Assembly (NCBI GenBank): GCA_947504725.1
Contig: CANNHN010000001.1
Span: 434,001 to 498,000, forward strand
Source of the DNA: Bacteroidota bacterium
GTDB taxonomy: Bacteria > Bacteroidota > Bacteroidia > 2-12-FULL-35-15
DNA: 64,000 nucleotides
Direction: 5' to 3'
Numbering within the stretch: position 1 is the first letter of the stretch; each line of letters begins with the position of its first letter. Below the pieces are notes generated by a model that was not told the DNA's origin, did not search any database, and saw only the letters and a program-made list of their open reading frames with translations. The translations under genes were made by a program, and so were the position numbers. Below are positions 8,407 through 12,709 of this stretch, one piece after another.

Positions 8407-9486
8407 ATGAAAAAGTATTTATTTTATTCTTTCGTCACTTTAATCTTTAATTCTGCAGTTGCACAGGATACTCATTTCTCACAATACGATCATTCTCCAC
8501 TAACTATTAATCCAGCTTTAACGGCAGTAGACAAAAACTTACAAGTTGTTCTTCATCATAAAGATCAATGGAAGTCATTGAATGGATATAGAACTGATGA
8601 ATTGTCGTTCGAAATGCGATTTGATCCTACCAGTTGGATAAAAATTAAAAATCGTACAGCATTGTACAAGAAAAAAACACAAAAAGGATTTGCATTTGGC
8701 TTAAGCGTATTCGCTGATAAAGCGGGAGATGGTAGCATGCAAAAACTTTGTGGAACATTTACTTTGGCTTATCATTTAATGCTCGATCCCAACAATAGAA
8801 TTTCTGCTGGACTATTGACATCAGCAAAACAACGAAGTTTAAACCCAAGTGGATTGAGATACAACAGTCAATATAATTATATTGGAGCTTACGACCCATC
8901 AATGCCATCGGGTGAAATATACAAATCAAATAGTTTGACTTACACCGATTATTCTGCTGGAATCTGTTACAGCTTTGGCGAAGAAAACAAATACATGGAG
9001 TCTAATGATAATAAATCATTAAAAATGGGCTTCTCTCTTGATCACCTTTCTCGTCCTGAACAAGCATATATTTCAACTATTAAAGCAAAAGGATATATGA
9101 AGTATACCTTGCATGCACAAACATTACTAGGCATAAAAAATTCATCTTATAGCGTTGGTGCATCTGTCATTTCTATGTTTCAAGGTCCACAAAACGAAGT
9201 AACAATGGGAATGCTTTTAAAATACCGAATGAAAGAAGAATCCAAGTACACAGGAATAAAAAAAGGAATGGCTGTATCCTTGGGTTGTTTTTATAGATTC
9301 AGAGATGCTGTGATTCCATATCTACAATATGAATTAGCAAGATATGCAATTGGAATTAGTTATGATGTAAATCTATCTGGATTAAAAAAAGCAACAACAG
9401 GAAGAGGCGGATTAGAAGTAACACTTCGTTTCTTTAATCCTGTTCCTTATTTATTTCAAAAGAAAGTACGAGCAAGCTTCAGCTAG
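8407..9486 (+). CDS. PorP/SprF family type IX secretion outer-membrane protein
   Basis: A 359-residue protein with a signal peptide (MKKYLFYSFVTLIFNSAVAQ) and the hallmark DTHFSQYDHSPLTINPA at residues 21-37, which begins the PorP/SprF barrel family. The rest is an outer-membrane beta barrel. In Flavobacteria SprF is needed to put its neighbour SprB on the cell surface, and in many Bacteroidota PorP-like genes follow a type B cargo gene, as here with a 4-base gap. By inference this protein anchors or exports the preceding cargo. Its TAG stop overlaps the TAG stop of the convergent gene within the palindrome CTAG. Confidence 0.92.
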   Translation: MKKYLFYSFVTLIFNSAVAQDTHFSQYDHSPLTINPALTAVDKNLQVVLHHKDQWKSLNGYRTDELSFEMRFDPTSWIKIKNRTALYKKKTQKGFAFGLSVFADKAGDGSMQKLCGTFTLAYHLMLDPNNRISAGLLTSAKQRSLNPSGLRYNSQYNYIGAYDPSMPSGEIYKSNSLTYTDYSAGICYSFGEENKYMESNDNKSLKMGFSLDHLSRPEQAYISTIKAKGYMKYTLHAQTLLGIKNSSYSVGASVISMFQGPQNEVTMGMLLKYRMKEESKYTGIKKGMAVSLGCFYRFRDAVIPYLQYELARYAIGISYDVNLSGLKKATTGRGGLEVTLRFFNPVPYLFQKKVRASFS

Positions 9487-10193
9487 TTTGGAATCAAATC
9501 ACAAAACCAAAATCCATTTGTAGAATTTGAATTCCCATTCGAGTTTTTAATTTCCAACGGCTTGTAAATTTTTTCGCCAACTGAAAAAGGTATTGGTAAT
9601 TTAAATATTGGTCCAGCATAGCAAAACGTATGGAACTCTCCATTCTCACCACAAGAATCAACGTTTTCCGGAAGTGATTTAATAAATCTCGAATCAATCT
9701 CCACTCCTACTTTATCTTCCTTTAAATACAAATCATTCACGCAACAAGTAATTGTTTTAAAACCCAAAGAAAGAAATTCATTTATCAATGCTGAAGTGTT
9801 TTGTTTCCACAAGGGGAATTCTGCTTTCAATCCTACTTTCGATAAATTATTTTCGCGATAGCTTCTTAAGTCTTCTAAAAATATATCTCCGAAAATCACG
9901 TTCGTTACGCCTTTTGATTTGTATTCCAGAAGTAACACTTCCATTTCCTTTTCATATTCAGTATTTGTGCCTTCACTTACATACATTTTTTTCAAAGGCA
10001 AACCAATTGATGTTGCTTGTAAATCAAGCAACTCTTCACGAACGCCATGCATCGAAACACGTTTAAAAGTTGCATTGACAGTGGTTAACAAACAAACAAT
10101 ATCAAATTTATCGTCCAATAATACTTTATATAATGCCAGAGCGGAGTCTTTTCCTCCGCTCCAGCAAAATATGGCTTGTTCTTTTTGAGACAT
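9483..10193 (-). CDS. PP-loop ATPase, diphthine-ammonia-ligase (Dph6/MJ0570) family
   Basis: A 236-residue protein with the PP-loop SGGKDSALALYK at residues 12-23 and the family motif GEFHTFCYAGP near residues 186-196. Archaeal and eukaryotic relatives (Dph6) amidate diphthine, but bacteria lack diphthamide, so the bacterial protein must use another substrate. The start ATG overlaps the TAA stop of the upstream TonB receptor gene by one base (TAATG), so the two are translationally coupled and both lie under the cobalamin riboswitch. This context suggests a role in using or remodelling corrinoids, for instance ATP-dependent amidation; that is inference only. Confidence 0.87.
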   Translation of the reverse strand: MSQKEQAIFCWSGGKDSALALYKVLLDDKFDIVCLLTTVNATFKRVSMHGVREELLDLQATSIGLPLKKMYVSEGTNTEYEKEMEVLLLEYKSKGVTNVIFGDIFLEDLRSYRENNLSKVGLKAEFPLWKQNTSALINEFLSLGFKTITCCVNDLYLKEDKVGVEIDSRFIKSLPENVDSCGENGEFHTFCYAGPIFKLPIPFSVGEKIYKPLEIKNSNGNSNSTNGFWFCDLIPN

Positions 10194-12397
10194 TATAAAG
10201 TATAACGTAATGTTAAATAAAATCCTCGACCACGAGTGGAAAATCCATTAATTTCAAAATACTTTTTATCTAATACATTCTCGACTCTTACATTAGCCGA
10301 TAATCCTTTGTAAATAGCAACGCGTAAGGATATGTCCCAAAGCGTATATTGTTCAACAGCTAGCGTTCCAAGAGCACCATAAGGTCCAAAAGTTGGTTCA
10401 TAATAAACATCCGCTCTAGATCCAACATATCGAACATCTGTGCGAATTGAAACTTCCTTTATTGGAGAATAAGTTAAAGAAAGATTAGCTGTGCTTGGTC
10501 TGCGCGACAATCCCAATGTCTCCACTTCTTTTGATGTAATAAAGGCACCATTGCCATAAATCTGAATATGGTTTCCTTGTGTTTGAGCTGTATCAACATC
10601 ACTTGGGCGGTAGTTAATTTTGCCGGTAACCAAACTCACATTAGCTGAAACACTCAACTTTTCAGACATTTTTGAGTTTATTCCCAATTCAACACCTTGC
10701 GTTGTCATTGTGCCCAAATTAATATACGTATCACCTCTATAATCGTCTCTCGACCAATTTTGTCCTAATGTATCCAGTCCAATATTTTTATCCCATAAAT
10801 AAACATATTCAATTACATTTTTAACTACTGTATGGTAAAATGCTGCAGAAAGAGTTGTGTTGTTTATTTTTTGTTTGTATCCAACTTCAACTGTTTGTGA
10901 ACGTTCGGGATCTAACTTTTTATTCCCTCGTGTTAAACCAGTCGTGTATTGAGTATCCCACGTTTTATAATCTGTTGCATCATATAGTTGATACAACGAT
11001 GGAGCGTTAAATCCGCTAGCTACTGTTGCATAAAGCAATCCTCCTTCCAACACTTTTATGGATGGATTGATTTCATACGTCAAATTTGTACCAAATAAAT
11101 TGTGATTACTCATTCTAAATCCTCCAGAAATTGAAAATGCTTTTATCTTTTCAGAAATAAGTTCACCTCCTATGTCGGCATGTAAAAAAATGTTTGCAAG
11201 GGTTGATTTAGGATTAACGGAATCTGTAGACGTTTTTAACTCAACATAATCCGGAGGAAATCCCCAAGAATTGTAATAAAGGTAACTTGTATTTGCCTTC
11301 ATCTGTTCGCCATACATACCGCCTCCTACAACTAAGTTAAAGCCCTTAACAGCATAATTAGCTTGCAATTCATTACTAATCACTTTCCCTTCATATATTC
11401 CTTTGTTATAGGTTCTGTCAAAATTCCCTGCAGCATCTATAACAGATGAATCATCAATGGCAATACGTTTCATTGTAGACAAACCTCCGATAAAACTAAA
11501 GTTAAGTTTATCATTAAATTTATAAGCAGCACCATACGTCATTAAGCTCCTCTTGAAATCAATTGTGTAATTATCGTCATCCTTATACGCTGTCTTATCA
11601 ATATCAGTGAGCTGTTGGGTTTGTTTGTATGAAGCATAAACATCTAATTTCTTGTTTTGAAATCCTGCTTTACCCACCCAATCTAGTTTCGAAAAATCAT
11701 CACTTTTGTCAGAATGTTTATAGACAGATGCAACAGTAACCGTATCATTTGTAGCATTCTGTCCTTTTACATTTGCATTTGACACCTCAGCAGCAATGTA
11801 AAAGCCATTTTTTAGTGCATAATTCACATATAAATTTTCAGCAAGTTGCTGCGTGTTTTTTCCGAAACTACCTCCTGTTACAGAGGCATCTAAAGACAAA
11901 CCAGGTTTTGTGGCTTTTTTGGTGATGATGTTTACGACACCGCCAATGGCTGCAGAACCATAAAGCGTACTGTGAGATCCTCTCACAATTTCTATCTTTT
12001 CAATATTTGCTAAAGAAAGTTCAGCTACATCAATAGAATTATTAATTGCTGACGGATCAGTAATTCTAACACCATCGATTAATATAACAGTTTGATTACT
12101 ATTCGCTCCTCTGGTAAAAATACTAGACGTCATTCCCGGATTTTGTCCGGCACCCACAACATACATTCCTTCTTGTTGCGAAAGAAGTTCGGCAATGGAA
12201 TTTGCTCCCGACTTTTTTATATCATCGGAGGTAACCACCGTGATGCTTCGACCTACATCATTGATGTTTTTTTCACTTCTAGTGGCGGATACCACAACTT
12301 CATTTAATTGTTTGTTTTTTAATGAATCCTGTGCGGATAAATTTAACGCTAGAAACATTAAAGCGCTGGTTAATTGAAAGATTTTCTCCTTTTTCAT
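10193..12397 (-). CDS. btuB: TonB-dependent outer-membrane receptor for cobalamin (BtuB-like)
   Basis: A 734-residue receptor: signal peptide (1-23), TonB box region (NEVVVSATR at about 32-40), plug domain (about 45-155, with IRDPSA-type RITDPSAI and RGSHSTLYGSAAIGG), and a 22-strand type barrel ending in the aromatic-rich strand GRGFYLTLRYTL. The sequence is BtuB/CirA-like, and the 5' leader carries a clear cobalamin riboswitch, so the ligand is very probably vitamin B12 or another corrinoid. No carboxypeptidase-like N-terminal domain is present, so it is not SusC-like. The downstream PP-loop gene is coupled by overlapping stop and start codons. No BtuFCD transporter is in the window. Confidence 0.93.
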   Translation of the reverse strand: MKKEKIFQLTSALMFLALNLSAQDSLKNKQLNEVVVSATRSEKNINDVGRSITVVTSDDIKKSGANSIAELLSQQEGMYVVGAGQNPGMTSSIFTRGANSNQTVILIDGVRITDPSAINNSIDVAELSLANIEKIEIVRGSHSTLYGSAAIGGVVNIITKKATKPGLSLDASVTGGSFGKNTQQLAENLYVNYALKNGFYIAAEVSNANVKGQNATNDTVTVASVYKHSDKSDDFSKLDWVGKAGFQNKKLDVYASYKQTQQLTDIDKTAYKDDDNYTIDFKRSLMTYGAAYKFNDKLNFSFIGGLSTMKRIAIDDSSVIDAAGNFDRTYNKGIYEGKVISNELQANYAVKGFNLVVGGGMYGEQMKANTSYLYYNSWGFPPDYVELKTSTDSVNPKSTLANIFLHADIGGELISEKIKAFSISGGFRMSNHNLFGTNLTYEINPSIKVLEGGLLYATVASGFNAPSLYQLYDATDYKTWDTQYTTGLTRGNKKLDPERSQTVEVGYKQKINNTTLSAAFYHTVVKNVIEYVYLWDKNIGLDTLGQNWSRDDYRGDTYINLGTMTTQGVELGINSKMSEKLSVSANVSLVTGKINYRPSDVDTAQTQGNHIQIYGNGAFITSKEVETLGLSRRPSTANLSLTYSPIKEVSIRTDVRYVGSRADVYYEPTFGPYGALGTLAVEQYTLWDISLRVAIYKGLSANVRVENVLDKKYFEINGFSTRGRGFYLTLRYTL

Positions 12398-12507
12398 TTT
12401 TAATTTTTTTAAATGATTAATAAAAGGAGTAAAAAGGGAACGGATAGGATTATAGTAGAAAATCGAATTCCATTCTTAGCTCTTTACCCGAAAGCATTGA
12501 ATTTGTG

Positions 12508-12675
12508 CAAATGGCAGGTCTTCTGACTTGTTCTATTTAACGCCTTCCCATCCGAAGACAGTGGCATGAATGTTAAAACACTATTGCTAGTGAGAACTTA
12601 CAGCATCGGGAAATGTCCAGGATTTACACCTGATTCCCTTTTAATCTTGATTGTTGACAATCAAAAACCATAAAG
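12508..12675 (-). ncRNA. cobalamin (B12) riboswitch
   Basis: Read on the minus strand, the leader holds the conserved core of the AdoCbl-type riboswitch in order: GGGAATCAGGTGTAAATCC near 12640, ATGCTGTAAG, the B12 box GCCACTG (complement at 12559-12565), GGGAAGGC, and the 3' AGTCAGAAGACCTGCC (complement at 12513-12528). It ends about 110 bases before the receptor ATG. Binding of cobalamin is expected to switch the receptor and the PP-loop gene off. The outer borders of P1 are approximate. Confidence 0.96.
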
Positions 12676-12680
12676 CGGTG

Positions 12681-12709
12681 CAAATGTAAATAAATATTCC
12701 ATTTTACAA
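12681..12709 (-). promoter_or_regulatory. promoter of the riboswitch-receptor operon
   Basis: On the minus strand TTG (complement 12707-12709), 18 bases, then TACATTTG (complement 12681-12688), a full match to the TAnnTTTG box. Transcription would start a few bases before the riboswitch. Confidence 0.7.

Follow-up and report, generated by a model that had tools for sequence, protein, structure and literature searches.

A cobalamin riboswitch operon of a Bacteroidota bacterium that joins a BtuB-like receptor to a DUF71-B12 PP-loop ATPase, and a candidate role for the ATPase on imported corrinoids

The riboswitch operon and its ATPase

The DNA analyzed here (the window) comprises 64,000 nucleotides of a Bacteroidota bacterium (lineage 2-12-FULL-35-15; assembly GCA_947504725.1, contig CANNHN010000001.1, positions 434,001 to 498,000 of the forward strand) and carries a cobalamin (vitamin B12) riboswitch operon in which the gene for a BtuB-like TonB-dependent receptor of the outer membrane is followed by the gene for a PP-loop ATPase of the DUF71 family, a relative of the diphthamide enzyme Dph6. 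All parts of the operon lie on the minus strand:

12681..12688, minus strand: candidate -7 promoter box TACATTTG of the Bacteroidota type, starting at 12688, at the 5' edge of the riboswitch
12496..12687, minus strand: aptamer of a cobalamin riboswitch (RF00174), matched over the whole model (1-189) at 93.3 bits
12398..12495, minus strand: leader of ~98 bases from aptamer to start codon, with a weak predicted start-codon hairpin
10193..12397, minus strand: BtuB-like TonB-dependent receptor, 734 amino acids, with Plug and barrel Pfam matches
9483..10193, minus strand: putative DUF71-B12 PP-loop ATPase (PF01902), 236 amino acids, with S12-G-G-K-D16, H49 and G182-ENGEFH-T189

An earlier note on this DNA had described a promoter, a cobalamin riboswitch, a BtuB-like receptor, and a Dph6-family ATPase whose start codon shares a base with the receptor stop, and this layout is confirmed by the Rfam and Pfam matches and by the TAATG at base 10193, where the receptor TAA and the DUF71 ATG have one base in common. 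The riboswitch match, which runs from 12687 to 12496 (E 6.7e-22, against a gathering score of 31.5 bits), is the sole Rfam match in the window, and the whole host genome (3.40 Mb, 99.6% complete) yielded one RF00174 match and one PF01902 match. The last four bases of the DUF71 gene are shared with a convergent PorP/SprF-type gene (8407-9486); upstream of the operon lies a divergent RNA pseudouridine synthase gene. The box TACATTTG matches TAnnTTTG, which we take to be the Bacteroidota -7 consensus; with a density of TAnnTTTG in the window of 0.82 per kb and strand, the box by itself makes a modest case for a promoter. Both strands of the short stretch that separates the riboswitch from the pseudouridine synthase gene carry this box, at 12688 (minus) and 12721 (plus), as for two divergent promoters. 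In the leader, CUCCUUUU and AAAAGGAG (window 12380-12430, minus strand) could pair around the receptor start codon, giving a possible but energetically weak expression platform (z -1.47; 20 of 200 shuffles fold equally well). The receptor matches Plug (PF07715, 5.1e-25) and barrel (PF00593, 1.1e-32) domains, and its best NCBIfam model is TonB-B12 at 181.1 bits, which is under the cut-off of 599.7, so that the designation BtuB-like is based on homology and the riboswitch.

The 236-residue protein matches PF01902 with 124.4 bits (6.4e-36; gathering score 23.2), and carries the PP-loop motif SGGKDS at S12-D16 and GENGEFH at 182-188. The latter is the signature of the "DUF71-B12" subgroup of Dph6 relatives defined by de Crecy-Lagard et al. 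in 2012 (PMC3541065), in which ENGEF/YH stands for the EGGE/DxE of Dph6. Among proteins of known structure, PF0828 and PH1257 are nearest in sequence, and the AlphaFold model of the window protein (predicted local distance difference test score 93.4) aligns in VIA-align to these archaeal N-type ATP pyrophosphatases with Z 25.8 (2d13) and 25.2 (3rk1), and to the Dph6 structures 2d13, 3rjz, 3rk0, and 3rk1 as a set with Z 23-26 over ~200 residues. The next entries, at Z of ~10 and lower, are argininosuccinate synthases, nitrile synthetase, QueC, and GMP synthases; several enzymes among the argininosuccinate, GMP, and nitrile synthetases act by adenylating an oxygen of a carboxyl or carbonyl group. 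In the alignment to PF0828, the residues surrounding the adenosine triphosphate (ATP), S12, G13, G14, K15, D16, H48/H49, and T189, are retained. On the other hand, the catalytic E188 of Dph6 is H188 in the window protein, and histidine occupies this position in 30 of 30 aligned sequences and in all 114 relatives in our tree, which share the DUF71-B12 motif. With the catalytic and EF-2 interface residues taken from PMC3541065, five of the eight residues of the proposed interface are changed in a pairwise alignment (S44, Y45, Y103, Q104, and A149), whereas E78, E183, and E186 are kept, and the score against the NCBIfam Dph6 model TIGR03679 (88.3 bits) lies under its cut-off of 197.3. By its sequence, the window protein is thus placed in the DUF71-B12 subgroup, with an intact ATP site. 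A diphthamide enzyme is rejected on the basis of H188, the altered interface, and the TIGR03679 score, which bears out the earlier view of a bacterial Dph6 relative that does not make diphthamide; the name "diphthine--ammonia ligase" is misleading for these bacterial proteins.

Linkage of DUF71 genes to B12 loci across Bacteroidota

The tie of the subgroup to B12 has been in print since 2012. According to PMC3541065, of 102 DUF71-B12 genes 75 lie beside genes for B12 transporters and 18 beside cbiB, the link extends to other phyla and to archaea, and the genes anti-correlate with CbiZ in bacteria; a role in B12 salvage was predicted on this basis, with cleavage of adenosyl-pseudo-B12 (Ado-pseudo-B12) to cobyric acid, or another pseudo-B12 salvage route, as the proposed activity. 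A later listing gives DUF71-B12 as of unknown function in B12 salvage (PMC5041015), our literature searches returned no later experimental paper on the subgroup, and the terms riboswitch and btuB each occur zero times in the text of PMC3541065. The suggestion of the earlier note that the ATPase acts in corrinoid salvage is therefore not new but an independent rediscovery of the 2012 prediction, and its B12-uptake part is supported here by the riboswitch and the overlap with the receptor gene. Like the subgroup as described, the window protein has the ENGEF/YH motif, a PP-loop, and a link to B12 uptake, without a diphthamide context.

To place the operon among its relatives, we used one drawing of 148 Bacteroidota genomes, 39 of which have a PF01902 match, 38 of them over the cut-off with 40 genes (the 39th genome, G139, with a match under the cut-off, and a third such match in G083 were left out). 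Thirty-nine of these loci were scanned with Rfam, and 15 of the 40 genes have RF00174 within ~6 kb, compared with an expectation of ~0.2 at a density of roughly 1.6 riboswitches per 3.7 Mb. Twelve of the 15 have the riboswitch upstream on the same strand, one in convergent orientation (G102), and two downstream (G056 and G083). As a control, none of 33 PduO genes in DUF71 genomes (33 of the 37 such genomes with PduO) is within 6 kb of RF00174 among the riboswitch matches listed. In named relatives (the best 80 of at least 582, skewed to Flavobacterium and Chryseobacterium), an nhmmer profile built from 15 riboswitches, rather than Rfam, found a riboswitch at 19 of 80 loci and nothing in shuffled sequence.

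Several operon layouts recur (loci are numbered L). The order riboswitch-BtuB-DUF71 of the window is also found at L052, L060, and L070; L063 and L068 have riboswitch-BtuB-DUF6580-BtuF-SIR2-DUF71, and L053 has riboswitch-DUF71-BtuF-BtuC-BtuD. DUF71 is the first gene after the riboswitch at L053 and L160. A CobU-DUF71-CobT-CobS-CobC order is present at L074, L075, L086, L093, L162, and L096, the last with BtuB, DUF6580, and SIR2 in addition. The nearest relative of the window protein (L085, 78% identity) lies in the order riboswitch-BtuB-DUF5074-type IX secretion system (T9SS)-sorted protein-DUF71, next to the same convergent PorP/SprF neighbor. Five loci from metagenome-assembled genomes carry labels outside Bacteroidota (L088, L092, L134, L151, and L152), which may reflect transfer or contamination.

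The breadth of this linkage has to be set against its frequency. A recognized B12 gene or riboswitch is found near DUF71 at 37 of 120 loci and at none of the other 83; linkage was scored by sequence clusters and riboswitch matches within 5-7 kb, or over a shorter stretch where a contig ended (e.g. L125, L145, and L153), so that 37 is a lower bound. In a tree of 114 rows (no clustered DUF71 open reading frame was called at L067, L071, L076, L081, L082, and L134, which were kept for the neighborhood count only), a single clade of Flavobacterium, Chryseobacterium, Hymenobacter, Algoriphagus, and related genera accounts for 39 of the 77 unlinked rows, and another 11 form a Tenacibaculum/Aquimarina/Sinomicrobium clade, neither of which has a linked member. 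Linkage changes 15 times on the tree, at least seven of them on well-supported branches, compared with ~31 in shuffles. B12 linkage is thus broad by lineage but not by numbers. For the earlier concern that the gene might lie mostly away from corrinoid loci, this means that it does so by count but not by lineage, and for the question of how often it follows a B12 riboswitch, 12 of 40 genes do so on the same strand while most loci are unlinked.

The unlinked loci are the main argument for a non-corrinoid substrate, with the gene merely co-induced with B12 uptake, e.g. to serve a function that shifts when B12 runs short. We consider this unlikely, because the 37 linked loci are spread across many lineages with at least seven changes forced by well-supported branches, because DUF71 is interleaved with CobU and CobT in operons and comes directly after the riboswitch at two loci, and because the B12 link recurs in other phyla and archaea (PMC3541065). 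Together, the data make it very likely that the DUF71 ATPase belongs to B12 uptake or salvage.

Some neighboring genes are of interest in their own right. A SIR2-family (PF02146) gene adjoins DUF71 or lies close to it in B12-riboswitch operons from Sphingobacteriaceae and allied genomes (L063:5006-5701, L064, L065, L068, L096, L141, and L154); CobB of Salmonella, a sirtuin, first became known as a stand-in for CobT. DUF6580 (PF20221), a protein of ~195 amino acids encoded at L049:7290-7877 and 12 other loci (cluster K12) between BtuB and BtuF, CobU, or DUF71, is a candidate B12 transport component. In the Flavobacterium-type cobU-DUF71-cobT-cobS-cobC cluster, a BluB-like nitroreductase domain is fused to CobT (L074:6228-7913 and L075:6633-8309, the latter assigned from the same sequence cluster and length). 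Directly 3' of BtuB in riboswitch operons, a DUF5074 (PF16819) protein is encoded at L085:3368-4447 and L099:5846-6916 (cluster K36), which we presume may be a BtuG-like surface binder. The BtuG/BtuH loci of Bacteroides are likewise riboswitch-led btuB loci with accessory genes, but the accessory proteins described for them are surface B12 binders (PMC6143338, PMC8941943), and PP-loop or diphthamide terms are absent from the texts of these two papers. Two divergent, short DUF71 proteins, one of 206 amino acids with MGENGEFH (L083:5825-6445, G080) and one of 218 with CGESGEYH (L071:5556-6209, G127), have no recognized B12 gene nearby and possibly represent a further subgroup.

B12 genes that accompany DUF71

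The gene content of the 148 genomes bears on what the enzyme could act upon. CbiB was found in 28 of them, CbiZ in 5, CobS in 41, CobA in 49, and, over the cut-off, CobU in 36, CobQ in 30, and PduO in 111. The 38 DUF71 genomes, on the other hand, have no CbiB, no CbiZ, and no CobQ over the cut-off, with CobU in 5 and CobS in 6, while PduO or CobA is present in all 38. They span 16 family groups and lack CbiB without exception, which is the sturdier form of this result; the zero overlap does not amount to 38 independent tests, because a single family group (f16) supplies 25 of the 28 CbiB genomes. The genome of the window encodes PduO (G000:C3:2279-2770), and CbiB (no PF03186 match), CbiZ, CobU, CobS, and full-length CobQ were not detected in it. 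CbiB is also absent from 19 of 20 further named genomes with B12-linked DUF71, the exception being Lutibacter agarilyticus (20 of the 22 such loci were checked, L149 and L160 being left out). With PduO or CobA in every DUF71 genome, replacement of an adenosyltransferase was rejected as a role.

These counts speak to the mechanism proposed in 2012, by which the subgroup would be an Ado-pseudo-B12 amidohydrolase replacing CbiZ, the cobyric acid being rebuilt by CbiB and the nucleotide-loop enzymes. The proposal draws on the genes beside B12 transporters (75 of 102) and cbiB (18 of 102) and on the anti-correlation with CbiZ (PMC3541065), and in our sample, too, CbiZ (5 genomes) and DUF71 (38 genomes) never occur together. 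DUF71-B12 and CbiZ, which belong to different Pfam families (PF01955 for CbiZ), share a tie to corrinoid salvage and have been viewed as functional equivalents. CbiZ, an adenosylcobinamide and pseudo-B12 amidohydrolase, requires CbiB downstream, however, and cobyric acid, its product, would be a dead end in DUF71 genomes, because CbiB is absent from all 38 and CobS from 32. Furthermore, both CbiZ and DUF71 are missing from 23 of the 28 CbiB genomes, contrary to the pattern behind the proposal, in which CbiB genomes have one or the other, and the co-distribution with CbiB and CbiZ does not extend to Bacteroidota. As a rule, enzymes with a PP-loop spend ATP to make bonds, which also counts against a hydrolase. 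A CbiZ-like mechanism is therefore unlikely in Bacteroidota, and we give this amidohydrolase a low probability.

The same argument applies to a ligase that would replace CbiB, joining aminopropanol or its phosphate to cobyric acid and feeding CobU, CobT, CobS, and CobC. This would suit the amide-forming chemistry of PP-loop enzymes and the position of DUF71 between CobU and CobT at L086, L093, L162, L074, L075, and L096, all in genomes without CbiB. Its product would be useless, on the other hand, where CobS (32 of 38) and CobU (33 of 38) are missing, as in the genome of the window, and 18 of 102 DUF71-B12 genes adjoin the very cbiB they would replace (PMC3541065), making this ligase highly improbable. 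Remodeling in the manner of CbiR, with the nucleotide loop cut to cobinamide or its phosphate and the lower ligand refitted, finds some encouragement in genomes that combine DUF71 with BluB-CobT, CobU, CobS, and CobC, and CbiZ-free remodeling is documented for the Akkermansia hydrolase CbiR, once likewise a gene without a role among B12 salvage genes (PMC7733943). CbiR is a member of the AP endonuclease 2 superfamily, however, and acts with nucleotide-loop enzymes of the same genome (PMC7733943). In the 32 of 38 DUF71 genomes that lack CobS there is nothing to refit with, so that a remodeling cut, like a CbiB substitute, would be pointless there, and a PP-loop ATPase would be an odd hydrolase; we hold remodeling to be very unlikely.

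What the DUF71 hosts share is a need to import finished or near-finished corrinoids, and the enzyme most likely acts on intact imported corrinoids; that its substrate is an intact cobamide is, in our judgment, somewhat probable. An ATP-dependent handling of corrinoids without amide chemistry, such as keeping them in the cytoplasm, freeing them from the transporter, or readying them for adenosylation, would be consistent with the operon positions beside BtuB, BtuF, and DUF6580 and with DUF71 in genomes that have only uptake and PduO. However, PduO or CobA leaves no need for an adenosyltransferase role, and a mere carrier would not need a conserved PP-loop active site, so that such handling appears quite improbable.

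A tentative repair reaction

The explanation we favor, tentatively and at somewhat less than even confidence as a whole, is that the receptor and the ATPase are made together and that imported cobamides are re-amidated before adenosylation. When B12 is scarce, the riboswitch would let both proteins be made, and B12 would shut off both; the receptor would import intact cobamides, and the ATPase would adenylate a carboxylate of the imported corrinoid by transfer of adenosine monophosphate (AMP) with release of pyrophosphate. Ammonia would then replace the AMP, restoring side-chain amides hydrolyzed in the environment, and PduO would adenosylate the repaired cobamide. The reaction would be of the Dph6 type, with a corrinoid in the place of diphthine, and by that analogy amidation of corrin side chains, which the earlier note had raised, is plausible. 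Re-amidation is favored because it requires nothing beyond an intact corrin and PduO and fits the amide-forming chemistry of Dph6, and because it would be useful to hosts that rely on uptake alone as well as to cobinamide salvagers with CobU, CobT, and CobS. That the enzyme is an amide-forming repair ligase is nonetheless a possibility with the balance tilted against it, and the more specific proposal, that DUF71-B12 as a group re-amidates hydrolyzed corrin side chains at the expense of ATP, is doubtful.

Several observations weigh against this explanation. The change of E188 to H188 alters a residue thought to be catalytic in Dph6, so that the reaction may not be amidation; repair remains a guess, and H188 could equally mean another reaction. 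With 83 of 120 loci lacking a recognized B12 gene within the 5-7 kb scored, a non-corrinoid role retains some likelihood, and the clades without linked members may indicate a substrate that does not belong to B12 metabolism. A B12 riboswitch is present in 145 of the 148 genomes, and DUF71 over the cut-off is missing from 110, which manage without it, so that the enzyme is optional. The absence of CobQ from DUF71 genomes was not counted as discriminating support for repair, since CbiB is absent from the same genomes. Our literature searches returned no description of such an enzyme repairing deamidated corrinoids.

The subgroup and its predicted role in B12 salvage were already known; what is new is the evidence against a CbiZ-like mechanism in Bacteroidota and a narrower substrate, namely what bacteria restricted to uptake would meet, an intact or damaged cobamide. 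This yields a short list of test substrates for a group that has been listed without a role since 2012. We know of no B12 repair enzyme of this kind and, if the proposal is true, repair would let organisms without any corrin-building step make use of weathered B12.

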